Positions 2,416 to 14,728 of a stretch of 51,265 nucleotides of DNA are shown here, piece after piece (position 1 is the stretch's first letter; each line of letters begins with the position of its first letter). The translations under genes were made by a program, and so were the position numbers. The stretch lies in contig JADFJJ010000010.1 of the NCBI GenBank assembly GCA_022566215.1, positions 1 to 51,265 of the forward strand. Reading direction: 5' to 3'. Origin of the DNA: Pseudomonadota bacterium (GTDB lineage Bacteria; Pseudomonadota; Alphaproteobacteria; Sphingomonadales; SMXR01). The notes below the pieces were generated by a model that saw only the letters and a list, made by a program, of their open reading frames with translations, had not been told where the DNA came from and searched no databases.

Positions 2416-3231
2416 TCAATAATTTTCCGCCGGTGATCCCGCCGGGGTGAAATGCCCGGCGACGCGGAGGCCGGATTTGCTGGTGCATTCCAGCGAGTGT
2501 TGCTGGCGTTTGGGCAGGAAGATAATGCTGCCCGCCTTGACCGCGCCCTGTTGATCTTCGGTCCACATCAAGCCTTCGCCAGACAGGACATAAAGCGCCT
2601 CTTCATAGAGGTGAAAGTGGCTTGGGGCCTTGCTTAAAGGGATTTCTCCGATGAACTGGGTGACTTGATCCGAGCCCACCCCCTTGGAGACCAGCACCTG
2701 GAAAAAACGATCCCCCATCGCCTCCTTCTTTGATGGATCGACCTCCACTACACGCTCCGGAAAGCCGCCATCGAAATTGTCCGGCATCTCCTCCAGAACC
2801 TTTGCCCCGTCCTCTTCCGGACAGACCGTGATCAGGATTCTTATTAAGGGATCACCCTCACCCTTCCCTCTCCCGTCAAGGGAGAGGGTATTCGATTTGG
2901 CGCCTTCCTGTACTTCCTCTCCCCTCGTGGGAGAGGATTGAGGTGAGGGGGTTATTTGAAACGCTTCGCCCGGGCGGATGTAAAGCCCGGATTGGGAAGG
3001 CATTTCGAAGACCTGGCCGGAGACGGTGACACTGGCCGAACCGGCCGCCGCGAACAGGATCACGTCACTATGCCCGAAGGCGTAAATGGGTGAGGGCGCG
3101 CCCAAAAGATCAAGCAGGTGCTGGCTCAGGTGTTGGGCGCCGGATTTGCGCCCGATCACGCACCTCAATTCCCCCGGCTTGCGCGCCCCGGGATCGAGGA
3201 TAAAACAGCCGCCCTTGAGGTCGGTTTTCAT
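2416..3231 (-). CDS. Bicupin protein with in-frame palindromic insert
   Basis: A 271-residue protein with two cupin domains. The N-terminal cupin (about residues 25-92) has no HxH motif and probably binds no metal. The C-terminal cupin (about 175-260) has H205-x-H207-xxx-E211 followed by SGEG and a later Q-Q-H-S, the usual set of four metal ligands. Residues about 93-127, rich in Ser, Pro, Gly and Arg, are encoded by a palindromic repeat at 2851-2954 and separate the two cupins without breaking the frame. Bicupins of this type include dioxygenases and ureidoglycine aminohydrolase-like enzymes. The gene is divergent from the tryptophan dioxygenase gene, so a role in aromatic catabolism is possible but not shown. 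Its 3' tail exists in two further copies to the left. Confidence 0.75.
   Translation of the reverse strand: MKTDLKGGCFILDPGARKPGELRCVIGRKSGAQHLSQHLLDLLGAPSPIYAFGHSDVILFAAAGSASVTVSGQVFEMPSQSGLYIRPGEAFQITPSPQSSPTRGEEVQEGAKSNTLSLDGRGKGEGDPLIRILITVCPEEDGAKVLEEMPDNFDGGFPERVVEVDPSKKEAMGDRFFQVLVSKGVGSDQVTQFIGEIPLSKAPSHFHLYEEALYVLSGEGLMWTEDQQGAVKAGSIIFLPKRQQHSLECTSKSGLRVAGHFTPAGSPAENY
2851..2954. repeat. Palindromic repeat element inside the bicupin gene
   Basis: A GC-rich element made of two perfect 9-bp stems: CCCTCTCCC/GGGAGAGGG at 2866-2874 and 2880-2888, and TCCTCTCCC/GGGAGAGGA at 2915-2923 and 2929-2937, each with a 5-base loop, enclosed by imperfect outer arms (ACCCTCACCC on the left, GGGTGAGG-like on the right). 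It resembles the dispersed CCCTCACCC...CTCTCCC palindromes found in many proteobacterial genomes. Only this copy is seen in the window. It is translated in frame as about 35 residues. Confidence 0.75.
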
Positions 3232-3322
3232 GCTTTTCCGCGTCCTCTTTTATGATATCCCTTTTACATTTCCATAACCGCCTGATAAGGGAAAAGCGCA
3301 AGCTAATCAATGGGAACAAAAA

Positions 3323-3374
3323 GGCAGGCCATGCGGCCCTTATTTGTCATGACCAAGCGCCAGCCGGGCCTGCC
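3323..3374 (+). promoter_or_regulatory. Possible leader hairpin before tryptophan dioxygenase
   Basis: In the 173-base region between the divergent bicupin and dioxygenase genes, GGCAGGCC (3323-3330) can pair with GGCCTGCC (3367-3374), followed by GGGCTTTTGCTT. This is an 8-bp stem with a 36-base loop and a short T run, about 30 bases before the dioxygenase start codon. It could act as a leader structure, but the long loop makes this weak. Confidence 0.25.
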
Positions 3375-3404
3375 GGGCTTTTGCTTAAACCTGGGGACAG
3401 ACCG

Positions 3405-4244
3405 ATGACCGACAAAAAACAGCACATGAAATTCGAGGGCGAGAATATCCATTGGGATATGGACATGTCCTACGGCCAGTATTTGCATCTTGACCAGGTA
3501 CTGAGTGCGCAAAAACCCTTGTCCGGCGAGCATGACGAGATGCTGTTCATTATCATCCACCAGGCCTCGGAGCTGTGGATGAAGCTGTGCATCCATGAGC
3601 TCTTGTCGGCCACCGGGGATATCAGGAAGGACGATCTGGGGCCGTCGTTCAAGAAGCTCTCACGGGTCGCGCGGATCCAGACCCAGCTGTTGCAGTCGTG
3701 GGAGGTGCTGGCGACCATGACGCCCTTTGATTACATGAATTTCCGCGATGCCCTTGGCCGCTCATCAGGGTTCCAGTCCTACCAGTACCGCATCATCGAG
3801 TTTACGCTGGGCCACAAGGAAGAAAAGATGATCACCCTTTTTGAAGGCCAGCCCGAGATCAAGGCGGTCATGGAAAAGGCGCTGAAGACGCCCGGCATCT
3901 ACGATGAAACATTGAAACTGTTGCACCGGCGCGGGTTCGACATCCCGAAACAGCGCCTGGAGCGTGACTGGACGCAGAATTATGAAGCGCACAAGGGGGT
4001 TGAGGATGCCTGGTACAAAATCTACAACAACGCGGAGGAGTATTTCGATCTTTATGAACTGGCGGAAAAGCTGGTCGACCTGGAATACCGCCTGCAGCAG
4101 TGGCGCTTTACCCACCTGAAGACGGTCGAGCGGATCATCGGCGGCAAGCGCGGCACCGGCGGCACCAGCGGCATTGGCTATCTGGCCAAAGCGCTGTCCC
4201 ACACTTTCTTCCCGGAACTGTGGACGGTCCGCACCAGATTGTAG
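3405..4244 (+). CDS. kynA: Tryptophan 2,3-dioxygenase
   Basis: A 279-residue haem enzyme that opens the indole ring of L-tryptophan with O2 to give N-formylkynurenine, the first step of the kynurenine pathway. Diagnostic features are the SYGQYLHLDQVL opening, the IIHQASELWMK substrate-site motif, H237 in the WRFTHLKTVERIIG stretch (the expected haem ligand) and the GTGGTSG loop near the C-terminus. Length is normal for bacterial enzymes. The start at 3405 is preferred because GGGGACAG precedes it by 7 bases and because the family starts near this point; an upstream in-frame reading to 3252 lacks homology. Kynureninase starts 14 bases after the stop codon, so the two are surely co-transcribed. 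Confidence 0.95.
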   Translation: MTDKKQHMKFEGENIHWDMDMSYGQYLHLDQVLSAQKPLSGEHDEMLFIIIHQASELWMKLCIHELLSATGDIRKDDLGPSFKKLSRVARIQTQLLQSWEVLATMTPFDYMNFRDALGRSSGFQSYQYRIIEFTLGHKEEKMITLFEGQPEIKAVMEKALKTPGIYDETLKLLHRRGFDIPKQRLERDWTQNYEAHKGVEDAWYKIYNNAEEYFDLYELAEKLVDLEYRLQQWRFTHLKTVERIIGGKRGTGGTSGIGYLAKALSHTFFPELWTVRTRL

Positions 4245-4258
4245 CAATCCCCAGCCCG

Positions 4259-5449
4259 ATGAAAAAAATCACTCTAGAAAAGGTCCGGGAAATGGACAGG
4301 ATCGACCCCTTCCGCGGGAAACGGGAGGAATTTCTGTTGCCTGAAGGTATTATTTATCTCGATGGGAATTCGCTTGGCGCGCTGCCCAAAGCGGTTCGGC
4401 TGAGGATCCGCGATGTCACCGAGAACGAATGGGGCCAGAGCCTGATTGCCGGCTGGGACAAGCACGGCTGGGTCGCGCTGCCCGGCAAGGTCGGCGACAA
4501 GATCGCCCGGCTGATCGGCGCAAAACAGGGCGAAGTGGTGGTGACCGAAAGCACTTCCATCAATCTTTTCAAGGCGGTAACCGCGGCTCTTCAAGTAGGG
4601 CCGAAAAGGGGCACTATTCTGACAGAAAAGGGCAATTTTCCGGCCGATTTGTACGTTCTGGACGCGATTGCGCGCGAATCGGGAGGAAAGGTTAAGATCA
4701 AGCGGGTTCGGAGGGAGGATTTGATCGCTTCGCTGACCGATGAGATCGCCATCCTGTGCCTGACCCACGCCAATTATAAAACTTCTGTCCGGCATGACAT
4801 GGCGGCGCTGACCAGGCGCGCCCGGGAGGCCGGCGCCATGACCATCTGGGACCTGAGCCATTCGGCCGGTGCGCTGCCGGTGGATCTAAACGGCTGCGGC
4901 GCCGATTTCGCGATCGGCTGCGGCTACAAGTTCCTCAACGGCGGGCCCGGCGGATCGGGTTATATCTTTGTCGCTGCGCGTCATCAGAATAAAATCCTTC
5001 CCGCCCTGGCCGGCTGGATGGGGCATGTCCGCCCGTTCGATTTCTCATCGGATTACCAGCCGGTTTCCGGCATTGCCCGGCAGCTGACCGGAACCCCTTT
5101 CGTGATCGGCGCAGCCGCTCTGGACGCGGCCCTCGAGGTCTTTGACGGGGTCGATATGGAAGCGGTCGGCGAAAAGGCCGGAAAGCTCGGTGATCTTTTT
5201 ATCGGCCTGGTTGAAGCGGAATGCCCGGAGATGAAACTGGCCTGCCCCAGGGAGGCGACCGGGCGCACCAGCCAGGTGACCTTCACCTACCCGGAGGCGC
5301 AAAAAATTATGGCTGAGGTGGTCAAGCGCGGAGTGGTCGCCGATTTCCGCCCGCCCGATGTGATGCGCTTCGGGCTGGCGCCCTTGTATAACAGCTATGA
5401 AGACGTTTACAGGGCGGTCCTGACCCTGAAAGAAATCTTCAAGCAGTAA
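4259..5449 (+). CDS. kynU: Kynureninase
   Basis: A 396-residue PLP enzyme that cleaves L-kynurenine to anthranilate and L-alanine. The sequence shows IYLDGNSLGALPKAV near the N-terminus, the TESTSINLFK phosphate-binding region, the D-L-S-H-S-A-G stretch and the PLP lysine K224 in GCGYKFLNGGPGG. The C-terminus ends with the RFGLAPLYNSYEDVYRAV pattern typical of the family. The ATG at 4259 gives the usual N-terminus (MKKITLEKVREMD). It lies 14 bases after kynA, and the first TPR-sulfotransferase gene starts 5 bases after its stop. No kynurenine formamidase gene is present in the window, so that step must be encoded elsewhere. Confidence 0.95.
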   Translation: MKKITLEKVREMDRIDPFRGKREEFLLPEGIIYLDGNSLGALPKAVRLRIRDVTENEWGQSLIAGWDKHGWVALPGKVGDKIARLIGAKQGEVVVTESTSINLFKAVTAALQVGPKRGTILTEKGNFPADLYVLDAIARESGGKVKIKRVRREDLIASLTDEIAILCLTHANYKTSVRHDMAALTRRAREAGAMTIWDLSHSAGALPVDLNGCGADFAIGCGYKFLNGGPGGSGYIFVAARHQNKILPALAGWMGHVRPFDFSSDYQPVSGIARQLTGTPFVIGAAALDAALEVFDGVDMEAVGEKAGKLGDLFIGLVEAECPEMKLACPREATGRTSQVTFTYPEAQKIMAEVVKRGVVADFRPPDVMRFGLAPLYNSYEDVYRAVLTLKEIFKQ

Positions 5450-5454
5450 GCCCG

Positions 5455-7317
5455 ATGGCGAAAACAGCCCCAGATAAAGACCTTTTGAGCTACCAGAATG
5501 GCGGCCCGGATCTGGCCGCAGCCTGTCAACGGCTGGCGGCGGGCAGGCTGGCGGAAGGGGAGTTCGCAGCCGCTTTGCTGTTTGCCAAAAAGGCCAAGGG
5601 TTTAGGATGTGAGAGCGCCGATAATGATCTCAACATCGCCGAAAGTTTGGGCGCTTTGGACAAGTCAGAGGAAGCCGCCCGGCTGTGCCGTGATGTTCTT
5701 CAGGAGACCCCGGACAATCGCAGAGCGCACATGTTGCTGGGCTGGATGTTGATGGGGTGCAAGGATTTCAAGGCGGCGGCGGCATCCTTTCAGGCCGCGC
5801 TGGAGCTCGGCGTCGAAGACGGGGAGATCCTGGTTGACTTGGGCATTGCGCTGGAAGCAGACGGGGATGAAACCAGAGCCGGAAAGCACTTCGACCGGGC
5901 GAAAATTGACTATCCGGACCTGTTCGAGACACTGATGGACAAGGCCGACCGGTTGTTCAGCCGCCACCTCAACAAAGCCGCGCGGCAGGGGTTGCGCAAG
6001 GCGGAAAAGGTGGCGTTGAAAGACGCCCGTGCTTATTACGAAATGGGCCTGGCAAATTTTATCATGGGCTTCGCCAGAGAAGCGGAAAAACTTTTCCTGG
6101 CCTCATTAGGTCTGCGCCCGACGCTTGAGGCTTACCGCGAACTTTCCGGGTTATATGAAAAATCTAATAACCTGAATAAGGCTGAGAGCTTTGCCCGGGG
6201 AGCCTTGCAAAACGCACCGCAAGAGCCTTCGCTCAATCTGGTCATGGCCCATTGCGAACGCCGCAAGGGCGACCAGGAAGCGGCCTTGGTGCGCTACCGG
6301 AAAATCCTCGAGGTGACGGAATCCGATTCAATCCGCATTGAGGCCCTGAACCAGATCGGCCGGATCCTCGACACAAAAGGAGAGGTGGACGAGGCCTATG
6401 AAAACTTCGCTGCCGCCAAGGAACTGCTGAAGCTGGATGAAAGTTTTGCCACCATCGATATCAAGGCCCAGCACCAGAAAATCCGCGCCATGACGGCCAT
6501 GGACTGGAGCGGGAAACCCCACTCACCGCCGCCGATGGAGGTTGGGTTCGCGCCCAAACAGCTGGTCTTTTTTATCGGGTTTCCGCGTTCCGGAACGACC
6601 CTGATCCAGGAGATTTTGAGCGGTCACCCGAAGGTGGTGGTAACCGCCGAGGAGCGGATCCTGCGCAAGGTGGTCGACATGATGTTAGAGTTTGAAGGTG
6701 GCTACATGGCCTCGCTTGCGGCGCTGACGCCAGACCTGATCAGGGATTTAAGGGCGCTATATATTTACCAGGCCAACACTTTTGCCAGCTTTGACGAGAC
6801 CACCACTCTGGTGGATAAACTGCCGCTCAATCTGATGCAGCTGCCGCTGATCCTGACCCTGTTTCCAGAGGCTAAAATCATCTTCGCCCTGCGCCACCCG
6901 AAGGCCAGTGTCTTAAGTTGCCTGATGCAGAACTTCCGCCTCAATAATGCCATGGTCAACATAACCGGCCTGGATGAAATCACGACCTTTTATGCCCTGG
7001 TCATGGGAATGTGGGAAAAAATCTCCGGCGAGAGAGATATCCCTTTTTATTACCTCCGTTACGAGGATGTGGTCAGGGATATGGAAGGTGAGATAAAAAA
7101 ACTAACCAAATTCCTGGGCCTTCCATGGGCGCCGGAAATGCTGGATTACGCTAAAAGCGCTCGCGCCAAGGGCATGATTAACACTCCCAGCTATCACCAG
7201 GTAGTCCAGCCGGTTTATACTGAATCGGTGGAAAAATGGCGCGCCTATGAAAAATATTTCGAGCCCTATAACGACCGGCTTGAACCTTTTTGTGAATTTT
7301 TTGGTTATTCCGGTTGA
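5455..7317 (+). CDS. TPR-sulfotransferase fusion protein 1
   Basis: A 620-residue protein with tetratricopeptide repeats in about residues 20-310 and a PAPS-dependent sulfotransferase domain (Sulfotransfer_3 type) in about 365-615. The 5'-phosphosulfate loop is intact: FFIGFPRSGTTL with F376-T382. The KLPLNLMQLPLI and FALRHP segments that bind the 3'-phosphate are also present, as is the C-terminal INTPSYHQV signature. No signal peptide is seen, so it should be cytoplasmic, with the TPR part probably presenting a protein or carrier-bound substrate. It starts 5 bases after kynU and is therefore in the kyn operon. It heads an array of four paralogues. The acceptor is unknown. Confidence 0.88.
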   Translation: MAKTAPDKDLLSYQNGGPDLAAACQRLAAGRLAEGEFAAALLFAKKAKGLGCESADNDLNIAESLGALDKSEEAARLCRDVLQETPDNRRAHMLLGWMLMGCKDFKAAAASFQAALELGVEDGEILVDLGIALEADGDETRAGKHFDRAKIDYPDLFETLMDKADRLFSRHLNKAARQGLRKAEKVALKDARAYYEMGLANFIMGFAREAEKLFLASLGLRPTLEAYRELSGLYEKSNNLNKAESFARGALQNAPQEPSLNLVMAHCERRKGDQEAALVRYRKILEVTESDSIRIEALNQIGRILDTKGEVDEAYENFAAAKELLKLDESFATIDIKAQHQKIRAMTAMDWSGKPHSPPPMEVGFAPKQLVFFIGFPRSGTTLIQEILSGHPKVVVTAEERILRKVVDMMLEFEGGYMASLAALTPDLIRDLRALYIYQANTFASFDETTTLVDKLPLNLMQLPLILTLFPEAKIIFALRHPKASVLSCLMQNFRLNNAMVNITGLDEITTFYALVMGMWEKISGERDIPFYYLRYEDVVRDMEGEIKKLTKFLGLPWAPEMLDYAKSARAKGMINTPSYHQVVQPVYTESVEKWRAYEKYFEPYNDRLEPFCEFFGYSG

Positions 7318-7392
7318 CTTTAAGCCGGGTTTTCCTAAAAACCTGAAGCGCCGGGAATGGCAGGAGACCGACCCTCTTACCTGAGAAAAGAC

Positions 7393-9354
7393 ATGACCAA
7401 AACCGCCCCCAAACCGGAATTATCCACCCTCCTGGAAGAGGGTCTTGGCCATATTGCCGACGGCCGGCGGGATAAGGCTGGCCAGTGCTTTGAAAACATC
7501 ATAAAAGCGGGCGCCGGGGCCGGGTCTTTGAACCAGCGGGACAAACCCCTGATCGCCCAGGCCCACAACCAGCTGGGAATCGCAGCGCTGGCCGGCGGTA
7601 TGTTTCATGAGGCTTTGCGGCATTTTGAAGCAGCCCGCGAAATCACCGGGTTTGATCCCAGCCAGGAGCTCAACCGCGGCCTGGCGCTGATCAACCTGGG
7701 ACGTCTGGAGGAAGCCGAAGGGGTTCTGAGCGGGGTGCTGGAAAAAAACCCGGACGGCTATCAGGCTGCCTTCCACCTGGGGAAGATATACCTGAAACAG
7801 GGCCGGGCGGAAAAAGCGGCGCTCTATCTGGAGCAGGCGGCCAAGGCCGCGCCGCCGCGGGTAGAGGCCTTTCTGGAACTTGGCATGAGCCTGGAGCTCA
7901 GTGGCAAAAAACCCGAAGCGGCAAAGCAGTTTGAGACCGTGCGCGAGATGAGTCCCGATCTGTACCAGGATTACTATAAAAAGGCCGAAGGCCTGAAAGA
8001 AAACCATCACTACCCGGATGCTTATGAGGCTTTGATCCGCGCCAGCAAAATCCTCCCCGATAATCCCATCCCGCACCATATGGTGGCGATTTTTTTCCAG
8101 GACCTGGGGGAAAAAGACCAGGCGGAGGAATTTTTGAAAAAATCTCTGGCGTTGCACCCAACCCCGGAAAGCTATGGCCAGCTGGCCTCCCTCTATGAGA
8201 AATCCAACGCCCTGAACAATGCCTGGGCGACCGCCAATACCGGCCTGCAATTGTTTCCCGACGATGCCTATTTGCAGCTGACCCTGGCCAAGTGCGAACG
8301 CCGCGCGAAGAAATTCGGCCAGGCGCTGGAACGCCTTCAAGGGCTGGAAGGGAAAACCAGTGACAGGATCGTAAGGACCCAGATGCATTTCCTGATCGGC
8401 TTGCTTTACGACCAGCAGGACGAAATTGACAGCGCCTTCAGCTATTATTCCAAGGCCAAAAAAGAAGCCGCGGCAAACCTCGGTAAAAGCGATGCAGACA
8501 AGGAAATCTCGCTTCAGTACATCAGGGACATGAGCCAACTGGATTTATCCAAACTTCCCCGGGCCAAGCCCCCCAAAAGACCCGGCGGCCCCGCCGGGCT
8601 GGCCTTTCTGGTCGGGTTTCCGCGTTCCGGCACCACGCTTTTGAACCAGATCCTCGACAGCCATCCCAAGCTGGTGGGGCTTGAGGAAAAGCCCACCATC
8701 CCGGGACCGGCCGCTTTGCTGCAGCAAATGGCGGCGGGCTACCCCAAGGCGCTGGAAGGCCTGAGTGAAGACCTGGCCGAAAATTTGCGGGAGGCCTATT
8801 ATCAGCGCATTGACAGCTTTGCCGACTATGATGAAAACAGCATCGTGATTGACAAACTGCCGCTCAACCTGATCCACCTTCCCCTGATCTGGGCGATGTT
8901 CCCGGAGGCCAAGATCATCATGGCGCTTCGTCATCCGCTGGGATGCTCTTTAAGCTGTTTTATGCATAACTTCCGGCTCAACAATGCCATGGCCAATATG
9001 TTCACGCTGGAAGACATTACCTCGTTTTATGCCAGGGTCATGGACCTGTGGCGGCATTTCACATCCACCCGGGAATTTCCTCACCATCTCATCAAATACG
9101 AAGACCTGGTCACCGATATCCGGGGCGAAGCGGAGAAAATTTGCTCATTTCTGGGGGTAGAATGGTCTGATGAAATGCTGAAATACGCCCAGCACGCCCG
9201 GGCCAAGGGCCTGATCAACACCCCCAGCTATCACCAGGTTATTCAGCCCCTTTATTCAGACTCACTTGAACGCTGGCGCCGCTATGAAAAATATCTGGAG
9301 CCTTACAAGGAGCGGCTGGCGCCCTATTGTGATATGTTTGGCTACCGGCTTTAA
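7393..9354 (+). CDS. TPR-sulfotransferase fusion protein 2
   Basis: Second paralogue of the array, 653 residues from the ATG at 7393 (an upstream in-frame ATG at 7357 would add 12 residues). TPR units fill about residues 15-340; the sulfotransferase domain follows, with an intact FLVGFPRSGTTLLNQIL loop (F409-T415), DKLPLNLIHLPLI, MALRHPLGCSLSCFMHNF and the C-terminal INTPSYHQVIQPLY signature. It shares with paralogues 1, 3 and 4 a CERR or LERR motif in the last TPR unit. The gap to paralogue 1 is 75 bases without an obvious terminator, so it is probably in the same transcript. A soluble, PAPS-using enzyme is expected; the target is unknown. Confidence 0.88.
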   Translation: MTKTAPKPELSTLLEEGLGHIADGRRDKAGQCFENIIKAGAGAGSLNQRDKPLIAQAHNQLGIAALAGGMFHEALRHFEAAREITGFDPSQELNRGLALINLGRLEEAEGVLSGVLEKNPDGYQAAFHLGKIYLKQGRAEKAALYLEQAAKAAPPRVEAFLELGMSLELSGKKPEAAKQFETVREMSPDLYQDYYKKAEGLKENHHYPDAYEALIRASKILPDNPIPHHMVAIFFQDLGEKDQAEEFLKKSLALHPTPESYGQLASLYEKSNALNNAWATANTGLQLFPDDAYLQLTLAKCERRAKKFGQALERLQGLEGKTSDRIVRTQMHFLIGLLYDQQDEIDSAFSYYSKAKKEAAANLGKSDADKEISLQYIRDMSQLDLSKLPRAKPPKRPGGPAGLAFLVGFPRSGTTLLNQILDSHPKLVGLEEKPTIPGPAALLQQMAAGYPKALEGLSEDLAENLREAYYQRIDSFADYDENSIVIDKLPLNLIHLPLIWAMFPEAKIIMALRHPLGCSLSCFMHNFRLNNAMANMFTLEDITSFYARVMDLWRHFTSTREFPHHLIKYEDLVTDIRGEAEKICSFLGVEWSDEMLKYAQHARAKGLINTPSYHQVIQPLYSDSLERWRRYEKYLEPYKERLAPYCDMFGYRL

Positions 9355-9367
9355 GGGTTCCTGAATT

Positions 9368-11020
9368 ATGATCCAGTCATCTGATGAAACACCGGCCGCC
9401 CTGCTCAACAGGGGAATTGAAATGGGCGAGAAGGGCGAGCTGGACAAAGCGGCGGAGCTTATGACGGCGGCCGCCAAGGACCAGAACTATGATTTTCTGA
9501 TCCGGGCCGGAGCTGCCCTGGAAGGCATCAAACGGTTCGGTAAAGCCCAGAAAATTTACAGCCGGGCAATGAAACTGAAGCCCGGAAATTTTCTTACCTA
9601 TTCAAGGCTGGGGGCGCTGTTTGCCGAGCTGGAGGATTTTCCGCTGGCGGTTAAGAACCTGGAAAAGGCGGTCGAGTTGAATCCCGGGGAAGGGGACCTT
9701 TACTATAATCTGGCGCTTGTTTATCAATCGCTCTCGGAAAATGACAAGGCCATCAAGGCGCTTGAGGCGGCCCTGGAGAAAGGCGCCCGGGCCTTTACGG
9801 TGTATGGGACGCTGGCCAGGATATACGAGCAGTCCAACCAGATCGGCAAACTGGAAGAGGTTCTGGAGGCCGGCCTGAAAGAATGTCCGGACGACCCGTT
9901 CCTGAATTTCAATTCCGCGGTTCTGGAGCGCCGCCGTGACAATCCCGAAAAAGCCTTGCAACGGCTTGAAGCCTGTCTTAATTCCGCAACATTGAAAAAA
10001 CCCGGGGAAGAATTCCAGGAGCTCGAGGATATGGAACTGCTGGCCAGTTTTGAGCTTGGCCGCAACTACGACAAATTGGGCGAATATGACAAGGCCTTCG
10101 GCCATTTTGCCAAAGCCAACCGGCTGGCCGCAAAAATCCCCTCCCGCAACCCGCCCCGGAAAGAACAAGCCCTCGCCAATATCACCGGGCTGCGCCAGCT
10201 GGATTATACCAACTGGCAGAACCTGACCGCCGACCCGCTGGAAAATTCAAATCTGACCCCGGTCTTCCTGGTCGGTTTTCCACGCTCTGGAACCACCCTT
10301 TTGCACCAGATCCTGGATGGCCATTCTAACCTGGAAGCGCTGGAGGAGCAGCCCCTGCTGGCGGCTTTAACCGAGTACATCAGCACCCAGAAGGGCGGTT
10401 TTCCCGCCGGCTTGAAGGATCTGGACAAGGCCGGCCTGAACCAACTTCGTGACAGCTATATGAAGGGATTAAATAACCTGCAAACCAAACCGGGGAAGAT
10501 CAGGATGGTCGACAAGCTGCCGATGAATATTATCAAGGCGCCGCTGATCGTGAAACTTTTCCCGGAGGCGAAATTTATCCTGGCGCTGCGCCATCCGTGC
10601 GATTGCACACTGAGCTGCTTCATGCAGAATTTCGACCTCAATCACGCGATGATGAATTTCCTCAGCCTTGAAGACGCCACCCATTATTACCGCGAGACCT
10701 TTTCGCTGTGGCTCAAATACCGCCGTGAAATGGATCTCGATGTCCACATGGTCCGTTACGAGGACGTGGTGGAGAACCTTGAGCGGGAAGCCCGCGCGGT
10801 TATATCGTTCCTGGGGATGGAATGGCAGGACCAGGTTTTGGATTACCGCCAGCAGGCCAGGGAAAAAAAGCGCATCAACACCCCCAGCTATCACCAGGTC
10901 ATCAAACCGATTTACCAGCACGCCAGGGGCCGCTGGCAGCGCTATCAAAAGCATCTGGACCCGTTCCTGGAAAGACTTGCCCCCTACATTGAGGAATTTG
11001 GCTATGGCGATCAGGATTAG
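9368..11020 (+). CDS. TPR-sulfotransferase fusion protein 3
   Basis: Third and shortest paralogue, 550 residues, with fewer TPR units (about residues 10-250) before the sulfotransferase domain. The PAPS loop is intact (FLVGFPRSGTTLLHQIL, F304-T310), as are DKLPMNIIKAPLI, LALRHPCDCTLSCFMQNF and INTPSYHQVIKPIY. It begins 13 bases after paralogue 2. Compared with the first two, the acceptor-side residues between these motifs differ more, which could mean a different substrate. The protein has no signal peptide and should act in the cytoplasm. Confidence 0.88.
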   Translation: MIQSSDETPAALLNRGIEMGEKGELDKAAELMTAAAKDQNYDFLIRAGAALEGIKRFGKAQKIYSRAMKLKPGNFLTYSRLGALFAELEDFPLAVKNLEKAVELNPGEGDLYYNLALVYQSLSENDKAIKALEAALEKGARAFTVYGTLARIYEQSNQIGKLEEVLEAGLKECPDDPFLNFNSAVLERRRDNPEKALQRLEACLNSATLKKPGEEFQELEDMELLASFELGRNYDKLGEYDKAFGHFAKANRLAAKIPSRNPPRKEQALANITGLRQLDYTNWQNLTADPLENSNLTPVFLVGFPRSGTTLLHQILDGHSNLEALEEQPLLAALTEYISTQKGGFPAGLKDLDKAGLNQLRDSYMKGLNNLQTKPGKIRMVDKLPMNIIKAPLIVKLFPEAKFILALRHPCDCTLSCFMQNFDLNHAMMNFLSLEDATHYYRETFSLWLKYRREMDLDVHMVRYEDVVENLEREARAVISFLGMEWQDQVLDYRQQAREKKRINTPSYHQVIKPIYQHARGRWQRYQKHLDPFLERLAPYIEEFGYGDQD

Positions 11021-11075
11021 GGATTGAATTTTTCTTGTATGCAGGGCAAGAGAAGGCGCACATCAGGGAGAATAA

Positions 11076-13052
11076 ATGAACAACCAGACCAACATAAAGA
11101 GCGTGGTCCAGCTTCTCAACCAGGCGGTTTCCCACCACCAGGCCGGCGAGAAGAAGGAGGCCGAGGCGAAATACAATGAAACCCTCTCGCACGAACCGGA
11201 CTTCCGGGCGCTGCTGGCCAGCAACCAGCAAGCGGTCCGGGAAAGCCAAACTCTGCTCAGGACTGTTTTCTCCCAGGCCTACAACAATCTCGGGGTTTTC
11301 CGGGAAGAGGAAAAAAACTACGGCCAAGCGATCAGCAGTTTCCGCCATGCCCTGGATCATGCCCCCGGCAGCGTTGAGGCCCACACCAATCTGGCGCGGG
11401 TTTTCCGCAAACGGCGCAACCTTGAAAAAGCTCTCGCCTCAGCCCGGGCGGCGTTAGAGCTGAAACCCGAATACATCCCCGCAATCATACAACTGAGCAA
11501 GATTTGCTATGCCCTGAGGCGTCCCGATGAGGCGATCGAGGCGGTGATGAAAGTCACCCCGTGGCTGGAAAAACACACCCGCCTGAACATTGAGTACGGA
11601 CGCTTGCTGGAAAAAACCGGACAGCTGGTAGAAGCCAGGGAAAGGTTCCACAAGGCGCTCAGCCTGGAGCCCGGCCATATCCTCGCTCTCTTAAGTCTCG
11701 GCGGCGTCAATTTCAAGCTCGACAAATACGGCGAGGCGCTGGAAAATTACCAGGCGATCCTGAAGATTGACCCGGAAAACATCCTGGCGACCACCAACGT
11801 CGGCTTTATCATGCAAAGGATGGGGCAGTTTGGCGAGGCCATGAACGCTTACAAGGCCTCGCTTTCCCTTGATCCCGGCCATCTGGAAACCCTGAGCCTT
11901 TACGGCTCGCTGTTAGAGATGACCGGCAAGTATGATCAAGGCCTGGCCATTTCCCAACAGGTTCTAGCGATGCCCAAGCTGGAGGACCGGCCCTATTACA
12001 CCGCGCACATAACCAAGGCCAGATGCGAACGTCGCCTGGGCCGCACCATCGAAGCGCTTGAAACCCTGAAAACCCTGCTGGGCGGCCCGGTCGGGGTGGC
12101 CGAAAGAAGCCGGATCTATTACGAGTTCGGCCTGGCCCATGACAGCCTTGACCAGACCGAAGAAGCGTTCCGCTATTTCAAAAAGGCCAACAGCTTGTTT
12201 CTGGAACAGGGGTCTGCCTTCGAGGCGGCAAAAAACGACCTGCCGGATTTTATCAGCACTATGCAAAAGAGCGATTTGTCGACCCTTCAGGAGAGCCCCT
12301 ACAGTTTGAAAACAGAGGGTCAGGAGGCCCCGGTTTTCATCGTCGGTTTTGTTATCGGCGGGGTCCAGGTGGTCAGCGCCTTTTTATCCCAAGTGCCGGA
12401 GTTTCAGATTCTCGAAGATTCAACCCTGATTATCGGGCTGCGGCGCAGCATCAGCAAAGACCAGCAATATCCGGAATGTCTGCTGAAAATGTCCGCGGAT
12501 GAGGCGCGCGCCTGGGCCGGGCAGTATCACAAGCTGAAGAACGGTAATTCACCCGAAACCGGAAGCGGGATTTCGATTAACACCCACCCCCTGAATTTCC
12601 TGGATTTACCCCTGATCCTGAAATTGTTCCCGGACGCCAAGGTCATATTCGCCATGATCCATCCGCTCGATGCGGTTTTGAATTGCTACATGAAGGATTT
12701 CGTCCCGAACCCGGCCACCATGAACTTTGCCGATTTTAAGGACATTTCAGAAATTTACGCCGCCAGCATGGAAGTGTGGGAAAAATACAAGTCCGAACTG
12801 TCTTTTGATTATATCGAACTGAAAGTGGAAAACCTGCTGGCCAGGCCGCGCCGGGAAATCAAAAAGGTGCTGAATTTTATCGACCCTGAAAACAAAACCG
12901 GGGCCCGGAAAGTGCTTGATAAAGCCGCCTGCGCGGAGATTGCGGGGAATTTATTTGAGCGCTATCCCAGCGGCCGCTGGATCCGCTATAAAAAGCACTT
13001 GAAGGCGGCAAGTAAACGCCTCGCCCTCACTATCAAAAAATACGGCTATTAG
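11076..13052 (+). CDS. TPR protein with degenerate sulfotransferase domain (paralogue 4)
   Basis: A 658-residue paralogue with the best-formed TPR region of the four (about residues 60-400, many canonical units such as ALNNLG/AYNNLG and LDPGHLETL). The C-terminal domain still aligns with the sulfotransferase fold, but the catalytic elements are gone: FPRSGTT has become FVIGGVQ (F425 onward), DKLPLN has become NTHPLN, LRHP has become MIHP, and the INTPSYHQV signature is lost. The frame is intact over the full length and the hydrophobic core pattern (LDLPLILKLFPDAKVIFAM) is kept, so this looks like a selected pseudoenzyme rather than a decaying gene. It follows paralogue 3 after 55 bases. A scaffold or regulatory role for the active paralogues is a guess. 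Confidence 0.82.
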   Translation: MNNQTNIKSVVQLLNQAVSHHQAGEKKEAEAKYNETLSHEPDFRALLASNQQAVRESQTLLRTVFSQAYNNLGVFREEEKNYGQAISSFRHALDHAPGSVEAHTNLARVFRKRRNLEKALASARAALELKPEYIPAIIQLSKICYALRRPDEAIEAVMKVTPWLEKHTRLNIEYGRLLEKTGQLVEARERFHKALSLEPGHILALLSLGGVNFKLDKYGEALENYQAILKIDPENILATTNVGFIMQRMGQFGEAMNAYKASLSLDPGHLETLSLYGSLLEMTGKYDQGLAISQQVLAMPKLEDRPYYTAHITKARCERRLGRTIEALETLKTLLGGPVGVAERSRIYYEFGLAHDSLDQTEEAFRYFKKANSLFLEQGSAFEAAKNDLPDFISTMQKSDLSTLQESPYSLKTEGQEAPVFIVGFVIGGVQVVSAFLSQVPEFQILEDSTLIIGLRRSISKDQQYPECLLKMSADEARAWAGQYHKLKNGNSPETGSGISINTHPLNFLDLPLILKLFPDAKVIFAMIHPLDAVLNCYMKDFVPNPATMNFADFKDISEIYAASMEVWEKYKSELSFDYIELKVENLLARPRREIKKVLNFIDPENKTGARKVLDKAACAEIAGNLFERYPSGRWIRYKKHLKAASKRLALTIKKYGY

Positions 13053-13066
13053 AGGGTCTTTGGGAA

Positions 13067-14563
13067 TCAGGCCGCCCAACCACCCTTTTTTTTCAATTCA
13101 TCGCCGATTTCCTTTAACGCCTGCGCCAGCACCTCGAAATCTTCGCGCCTGCTGCGGTGGTTGACGATCGCAGCTCTCAGGCAGAACCTGCCGTCCAGGG
13201 TGGTCGCCGAGGGCACCGCGATGCCCCGGTTCTGGATCTCGATCAACAGCAGCCGGTTGAGGTTATCGAGGTCGTTTTCACTCAGCCCGCCGGGATTGTA
13301 CCGGAAGGCGACGACGTTCAGGCCGACCGGGGCCAACAGCTCCAGGCTTCCGCTGCCCTCGATCAGGCTTCCCAGATATGCCGCCTGGGCGACATTTTGC
13401 TCGAACAGGGCCTTGAATTTCTCCAGCCCCTGGGTTTTCATCGAAAACCAGAACGCCAGCGCGCGGAAGCGCCGGGAATGCTCGATGCCGATATCGTTAA
13501 AGGTCATCGGTCCGTTGGAGACCCCGCCCGCCAGCGGCCGGAAATAGTTAGCTTCGAACGAGAATGCATCGCTCAAGGCCTGTGCCGATTTGACCAGCAC
13601 ACAGCCCAGCCCATAGGGCTGGTACAGCCACTTGTGCAGATCAAAGGCGATCGAATCGGCTAACGGAAGACCCTTCAGCCGGGGCCGGAGTTTGTCTGAA
13701 AAATAGGCCACCGCGCCAAACGCGCCATCGACATGGAACCACATATTGTGCGCCCTGGCGATTTCCGCCAGCTCCTCCAGCGGGTCGACCGCCCCGGTGT
13801 TGACGGTGCCGGCGTTGCCGACAATCACCATCGGCGTAAAGCCCGCGGTTTTGTCGGCTACAATTTGTTTTTTCAGCGCTTTCAGGTCGATGGTGAAATC
13901 ATCGCAGACCGGGATCGCCCGGTAGGCCTTCTTGCCGAACCCCAGCAGATCCACCGATTTGGTAATACAATAGTGCGTTTCCGTGGAGCCATAGATGGTG
14001 TAGCGCCCGGCCTTATTCGAGGACAGGCCCTCGCTCCTGACGTCGAACCCGGCCTTGGCGGTTCTGGCGGTCTGCAGCGCGGTCAGGTTGGCCATGGTGC
14101 CGCCGCTGACCAGGATGCCGCCGGCACGGGAAGGGAAATCAAACAGCTCGCGGAACCAGCCGATGACCTGCATTTCGACCCACACCGGCGCCTGGTCATG
14201 GCCGGTCAGGTTGCTGTTCATGGTCGCCGCCAGCATCTCGGCGACGATCCCCTCGGGCGTGCCGGAGCCGTTGACCCAACCCCAATGCCGGGGGTGGATA
14301 TTGCCCAGCGGGTAGGGAAAAATGTTTTGCTGGAACTCGCCGAAGACCTCTTCGACCGGTTTGCCATCTTGGGGAACCGGGGTGCTGAGCGCCTCCATTG
14401 CCGCTTTCGGCATGGGCTGCCAGGGGGGGCGGCCGCGCACCCCTTCGATATAGTCGATCGAGCGGTCCAAAGCGTCATGGGCGAAACGGCGAAAAGCTGC
14501 CCAATCCTCAGGATCGAGGGTAATTTCAAGGCCGGGTTTTGTGCCGGATGGGGCTTTGGTCAT
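13067..14563 (-). CDS. PLP-dependent group II amino-acid decarboxylase (aromatic type)
   Basis: A 498-residue PLP enzyme of the aromatic-L-amino-acid decarboxylase family. It shows the IHPRHWGWVNGSGTP substrate region, GGTMANLTALQTAR phosphate-binding motif, VGNAGTVNTGAVDPL, WFHVDGAFGA and the PLP lysine K311 in DLHKWLYQPYG. Members decarboxylate tryptophan, tyrosine, phenylalanine or related acids to amines, and some act as aldehyde synthases; the exact substrate is not readable. The ATG at 14563 is preferred over an upstream extension to 15109, since the family starts here and the extension would run antisense through the next gene. It converges on the TPR-sulfotransferase array with only 14 bases between stop codons. 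Confidence 0.87.
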   Translation of the reverse strand: MTKAPSGTKPGLEITLDPEDWAAFRRFAHDALDRSIDYIEGVRGRPPWQPMPKAAMEALSTPVPQDGKPVEEVFGEFQQNIFPYPLGNIHPRHWGWVNGSGTPEGIVAEMLAATMNSNLTGHDQAPVWVEMQVIGWFRELFDFPSRAGGILVSGGTMANLTALQTARTAKAGFDVRSEGLSSNKAGRYTIYGSTETHYCITKSVDLLGFGKKAYRAIPVCDDFTIDLKALKKQIVADKTAGFTPMVIVGNAGTVNTGAVDPLEELAEIARAHNMWFHVDGAFGAVAYFSDKLRPRLKGLPLADSIAFDLHKWLYQPYGLGCVLVKSAQALSDAFSFEANYFRPLAGGVSNGPMTFNDIGIEHSRRFRALAFWFSMKTQGLEKFKALFEQNVAQAAYLGSLIEGSGSLELLAPVGLNVVAFRYNPGGLSENDLDNLNRLLLIEIQNRGIAVPSATTLDGRFCLRAAIVNHRSRREDFEVLAQALKEIGDELKKKGGWAA

Positions 14564-14728
14564 AAAATTATTCCGCCAATTCAAAAAGCGTATGCAACAA
14601 AACATCCGCCCCGCCAAGCAAATACTGAGCTTCGGTCTGTTGTTTTCCAGCGCATTCTGAAAAATCCTGTGGATTTGGGGTTTGGAATGTGGTGATTTTA
14701 ACAGCTGATCGACAAGGGAACAACAGCA

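Follow-up and report, generated by a model that had tools for sequence, protein, structure and literature searches.

The array and its flanking genes

In the window (the whole stretch of DNA that was analysed, 51,265 nucleotides), four tandem open reading frames lie behind kynA and kynU, all of them on the + strand. ST1 (5455–7317, +) encodes a TPR-sulfotransferase of 620 residues with a Sulfotransfer_3 match of 115 bits, ST2 (7393–9354, +) one of 653 residues (121 bits; dN/dS 0.19) and ST3 (9368–11020, +) one of 550 residues (125 bits; dN/dS 0.24), and the catalytic set is kept in all three. ST4 (11076–13052, +; 658 residues) is a TPR protein whose sulfotransferase-like domain appears to be catalytically dead (a pseudosulfotransferase). 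TPR families and Sulfotransfer_3 are matched in all four proteins, the latter over its curated cut-off, with ST4 reaching 53 bits only. An earlier note, made from the sequence alone, had described four adjacent paralogues of these lengths, starting 5 bases past kynU, on the same strand and with short gaps, and the ORF coordinates bear this out.

We compared this genome (G000) with G001 and G002 from the same genus, G003 from another genus of the family, and the family genomes G005, G006 and G007. The first ATG of ST2, at 7357, would give a protein of 665 residues, compared with 653 from 7393; in the sister species G001 this ATG is replaced by ACG, followed by an in-frame TGA, which supports the start at 7393. 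The genes are separated by 5 bases (kynU–ST1), 39 or 75 bases (ST1–ST2), 13 bases (ST2–ST3) and 55 bases (ST3–ST4), and the 13–75-base gaps of the array are too small for any small peptide gene. The claim that no terminator lies between the genes is not strictly true: a consensus scan found a weak terminator-like hairpin with a T-run at the end of ST1 and in the ST1–ST2 gap (7309–7333, +; −12.1 kcal/mol, folding z −1.8), yet such matches occur in the region at chance frequency (20 found, compared with 18.0 ± 4.0 expected in shuffled DNA).

Upstream of the array, kynA (tryptophan 2,3-dioxygenase; 3252–4244, +) matches TIGR03036 with 392.7 bits as well as Trp_dioxygenase, both over cut-off; position 3252 is the start of the longest frame, and the conserved part begins near 3411–3459. 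The next gene, kynU (kynureninase; 4259–5449, +), matches TIGR01814 with 301 bits for a cut-off of 246. No kynB lies beside kynA and kynU, and a search of the genome, which is 93% complete, gave no Cyclase-family KynB. On the other side, a convergent gene (13067–14668, −) encodes a PLP-dependent decarboxylase of the aromatic/diaminobutyrate group (Pyridoxal_deC, 213 bits; best solved relative 4obu, 9.8e-73). It adjoins ST4 in G001 too, is not at this slot in G003, G005, G006 or G007, and was seen in this position in the genus only.

A cupin gene (2416–3231, −; Cupin_2, 44 bits) is divergent from kynA, and its orthologue, 49% identical, adjoins kynA in G002 too. Compared with that orthologue, some 30 extra codons lie in frame at about 2852–2955. 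The inserted DNA belongs to a dispersed palindromic repeat that recurs on other contigs of the genome and recalls the palindromic elements found within genes of Rickettsia. At about 1270–1315 (−), a stretch encodes VAGHFYPAGSPAENY, in which the end of the cupin protein recurs; this is perhaps the remnant of a duplicate.

Active-site residues of the four proteins

Among solved structures, the closest relatives of the catalytic domain are the protein-tyrosine sulfotransferases 1 and 2 (TPST1/TPST2; 3ap1 and 5wri). The catalytic domain of ST3 gives a whole-length alignment with human TPST2 and TPST1 at about 1e-13, and the small-molecule enzymes CurM and SULT1A1 also match it, more weakly. Six residues, R306, E327, K383, R408, S416 and S507 in ST3 numbering, are invariant in the alignment of ST1–ST3 and their genus relatives. 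They align with R78, E99, K158, R183, S191 and S285 of TPST2, which we take, by number and by role, to be the active-site residues of that enzyme. The essential set across sulfotransferases, as given in work on RaxST, consists of one Arg and one Ser, located in the first and the second PAPS motif respectively, with a Glu or His base between them (PMC6637879). All three are found in ST1–ST3: the 5′-PSB Arg, the catalytic Glu/His and the 3′-PB Ser are R306, E327 and S416 of ST3. Judged from the alignment, the residues with which tyrosylprotein-sulfotransferase-type enzymes bind PAPS and catalyse are kept in ST1–ST3. Protein-tyrosine sulfation would be compatible with this likeness to the TPSTs, which is no proof that the acceptor is a protein. 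Against G001, dN/dS is 0.15 for the catalytic part of ST2 and 0.17 for that of ST3, and the AlphaFold2 model of ST3 has a mean pLDDT of 79. An APS kinase is present in the same genome, and PAPS can therefore be made.

ST4 departs from this pattern at every position checked. It has FIVGFVIGGVQVV where the others have FLVGFPRSGTTLL in the alignment, and the equivalents of R306, E327, K383, R408, S416 and S507 are Ile, Asp, Thr, Ile, Asn and Ala, so that all six are lost, and the same six losses are found in the ST4 of G001. The essential Arg, Glu and Ser are thus replaced by Ile, Asp and Asn, and three further residues (Lys, 3′ Arg, C-terminal Ser) are gone as well. The domain is degenerate, its Sulfotransfer_3 match falling to less than half of the 115–125 bits of ST1–ST3. 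From these substitutions, ST4 would be expected neither to bind PAPS nor to be catalytically active. The description of each gene as carrying a TPR region plus a PAPS sulfotransferase domain therefore holds for the domains of all four proteins, whereas the PAPS-binding and catalytic residues are present in ST1–ST3 and missing from ST4.

The dead domain is nevertheless under purifying selection: against G001, its dN/dS is 0.24 and that of the TPR part 0.38, compared with 0.22 for a neighbouring HAD gene. ST4 is a conserved pseudosulfotransferase and not a decaying gene, and the intact 658-codon frame together with these values rules out a plain pseudogene. The predicted structure of the dead domain is of low model confidence. 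A grouping of ST4 with ST1–ST3 as one clade was neither rejected nor shown (p = 0.20), and long branches make it unsafe; a single origin of all copies at the kyn locus, with the G003 gene included, was likewise neither rejected nor shown (p = 0.13). We found no relevant paper on bacterial pseudosulfotransferases or inactive sulfotransferases in the literature searched. The dead copy offers a handle on the system, as whatever ST4 still binds is likely to be the substrate or a partner.

Linkage to the kyn genes

The earlier note had proposed a sulfation system linked to a tryptophan-derived signal or product, and suggested a search for conserved neighbourhoods, with arrays that lack kyn genes counting against the link. 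Such arrays occur in this very genome, a 93% complete draft of 1.89 Mb in which Sulfotransfer_3 is matched 18 times: two further tandem TPR-sulfotransferase arrays, of four genes (C91:802-7818) and five genes (C56:2732-10820), each form their own clade apart from ST1–ST3, and no kyn genes were found on the surrounding stretches examined. Three tandem arrays and 18 such genes in so small a genome are worth keeping in mind beside the conserved dead member. Among the 80 nearest relatives of ST1–ST3 in public genomes, 79 have no kyn gene in the surrounding DNA covered, some of it on short contigs, and the sole kyn-linked record is that of G002, from the same genus. No TPR or TPR-sulfotransferase gene lies within 1.5 kb of kynU at the order-level loci examined. 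Beyond the family, linkage between sulfotransferase and kyn genes was thus found neither among these relatives nor at any of these kynU loci.

Within the genus, G001 has ST2–ST3–ST4, but neither ST1 nor kynU comes directly upstream of ST2. There, the 230 bases that separate ST2 from the contig end are not ST1; kynA and kynU were not found in this 71%-complete assembly. These bases hold, just upstream of ST2, a dispersed palindromic repeat of about 45 bases (L116:54-99), the second one noted besides that in the cupin gene, of which G001 has many further copies and G000 several.

On the other hand, six genomes of the family (G000, G002, G003, G005, G006 and G007) have a gene for a TPR protein or a TPR-sulfotransferase next to kynU; in G004, the contig ends at kynU. 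In G005, G006 and G007 the gene at the array position is a TPR protein without a sulfotransferase domain, and in G003 it is partly degenerate, with the equivalents of R306 and K383 lost and those of R408 and S416 kept. In G002, a gene of the ST1–ST3 clade (support 100/98) sits between kynA and kynU, where G003 has kynB, an arrangement that favours some connection to the kyn genes. The background of gene-order conservation was judged from fetched genome stretches: much of the window shares its gene order with G003 and G006, across tens of kilobases, so the kynU–TPR adjacency may be plain inherited gene order, and its value as functional evidence is weakened. A dedicated tryptophan-sulfation system is therefore not supported, given the arrays without kyn genes in the same genome, the 79 unlinked relatives and the arrangement in G001. 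The neighbourhood search speaks largely against the link, with the G002 gene and the family-wide kynU–TPR neighbourhood keeping the idea alive. The first description of the genes is good; the kyn link was an over-reach.

Possible functions and known systems

The reading that we favour, tentatively and with somewhat less than even confidence, is that ST1–ST3 are cytosolic TPR-sulfotransferases that act on protein acceptors held by their TPR parts, and that the family was tandem-duplicated at the kyn locus with the dead paralogue as a binding or regulatory partner. The tandem family would have grown behind kynU through duplication, and ST1–ST3 would most likely move sulfate from PAPS onto a protein, at a tyrosine or some other hydroxyl. 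This protein may be held by the TPR superhelix, on the plan of TPR-glycosyltransferases such as OGT; in Foldseek searches, the TPR part matches designed TPR proteins, OGT and SPINDLY. ST4 would be retained as a partner without catalytic activity, serving as an adaptor that binds the substrate or as a regulator of ST1–ST3. Finally, kynA and kynU are probably co-transcribed with at least ST1, yet would have a separate job, tryptophan breakdown, presumably with no metabolic link to the sulfation.

The identity of such acceptors may be hinted at by the neighbours of TPR-sulfotransferase relatives elsewhere, where a PEP-CTERM protein adjoins in five loci and TonB-dependent receptors in up to nine. 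These neighbours are a weak hint at surface-protein acceptors, the association being weak (5 of 152 adjacent genes compared with 5 of 805 others, some loci being near-identical), and we set aside the PEP-CTERM neighbours as acceptors because the independent loci are too few. In the beta-proteobacterial relatives, the PEP-CTERM gene comes directly before the TPR-sulfotransferase (L141:9032-9862, L144:9060-9857, L147:8659-9345, L163:8695-9453 and L184:555-1253). In the literature searched, nothing relevant is described on the acceptors of TPR-sulfotransferases or on kynurenine with sulfotransferases.

Other readings of the locus share parts of this evidence. The very short kynU–ST1 gap and the kynA–sulfotransferase–kynU order in G002 would also be explained if the array rode on the kyn promoter without any shared chemistry, sulfation rising when tryptophan or kynurenine is plentiful; we consider this unlikely, though worth a hearing, as the terminator-like hairpin after ST1 and the non-ST1 DNA upstream of ST2 in G001 suggest that ST2–ST4 can be expressed alone. 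A closer, metabolic tie, in which kynA, kynU and the aromatic-type decarboxylase would make a small molecule that ST1–ST3 sulfate, with ST4 as a carrier-binding partner, seems improbable to us. It can draw on the same 5-base gap, on the G002 gene as a sign that the linkage survived a change of order, on a pathway that may be unusual since kynB is missing, and on a neighbouring decarboxylase of the aromatic/diaminobutyrate group within the genus. However, that decarboxylase is on the opposite strand, the kynU-adjacent TPR gene of the family neighbours has no sulfotransferase domain or a decayed one, the unlinked relatives and the other arrays of the genome have no kyn genes in the surrounding DNA covered, and the ST2–ST4 genes of G001 have neither kynU nor ST1 directly upstream.

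The sulfotransferase superfamily includes glycan and small-molecule enzymes, and there is a weak match to the nodulation sulfotransferase NoeE; a glycan or lipid, such as a surface polysaccharide, could thus be the acceptor rather than a protein or a tryptophan product. We give this little credence, since the best solved relatives are TPSTs and a domain search found no glycosyltransferase or polysaccharide-export gene adjoining the array. A last, highly improbable variant is an enzyme–pseudoenzyme complex, in which ST4 would present substrates to ST1–ST3 or switch them on, and in which this complex, or the kynU-linked TPR protein without a sulfotransferase domain of the sister genera, would respond to a metabolite of the kynurenine pathway.

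Our favoured reading, of sulfotransferases acting on TPR-held proteins, can be set beside known systems. TPR-sulfotransferases are widespread in bacteria, and those of, for example, Thiobacillus, Sphingomonas, Nisaea and Pelagibacteraceae have the same architecture as ST1–ST3, with 30–43% identity. They are sometimes in tandem as well (two or three adjacent copies in 10 of 80 loci), but their neighbours are not kyn genes and include, for example, PEP-CTERM proteins or TonB receptors. TPST1 and TPST2 (3ap1, 5wri) have a catalytic domain like that of ST3, in which their active-site residues are in place; however, they are Golgi membrane enzymes without TPR, whereas the array proteins have a TPR region of 250–400 residues and lack an evident signal peptide. 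RaxST of Xanthomonas, a bacterial tyrosylprotein sulfotransferase, is PAPS-dependent with the same essential Arg, Glu or His, and Ser, but is encoded within the raxX-raxSTAB cluster, which has a peptide and an exporter of its own (PMC6637879); no such genes are found at this array. OGT and SPINDLY, which rank near the top when the TPR part is compared by structure, are protein-modifying enzymes in which a TPR superhelix is fused to a group-transfer domain; their transferase fold and donor are different, and the likeness is one of plan and not of membership. Against this background, a 1.9 Mb draft genome with 18 Sulfotransfer_3 genes has three tandem arrays, one of them with a conserved dead member, and it is this dead yet conserved fourth copy that is the unusual part of the array.
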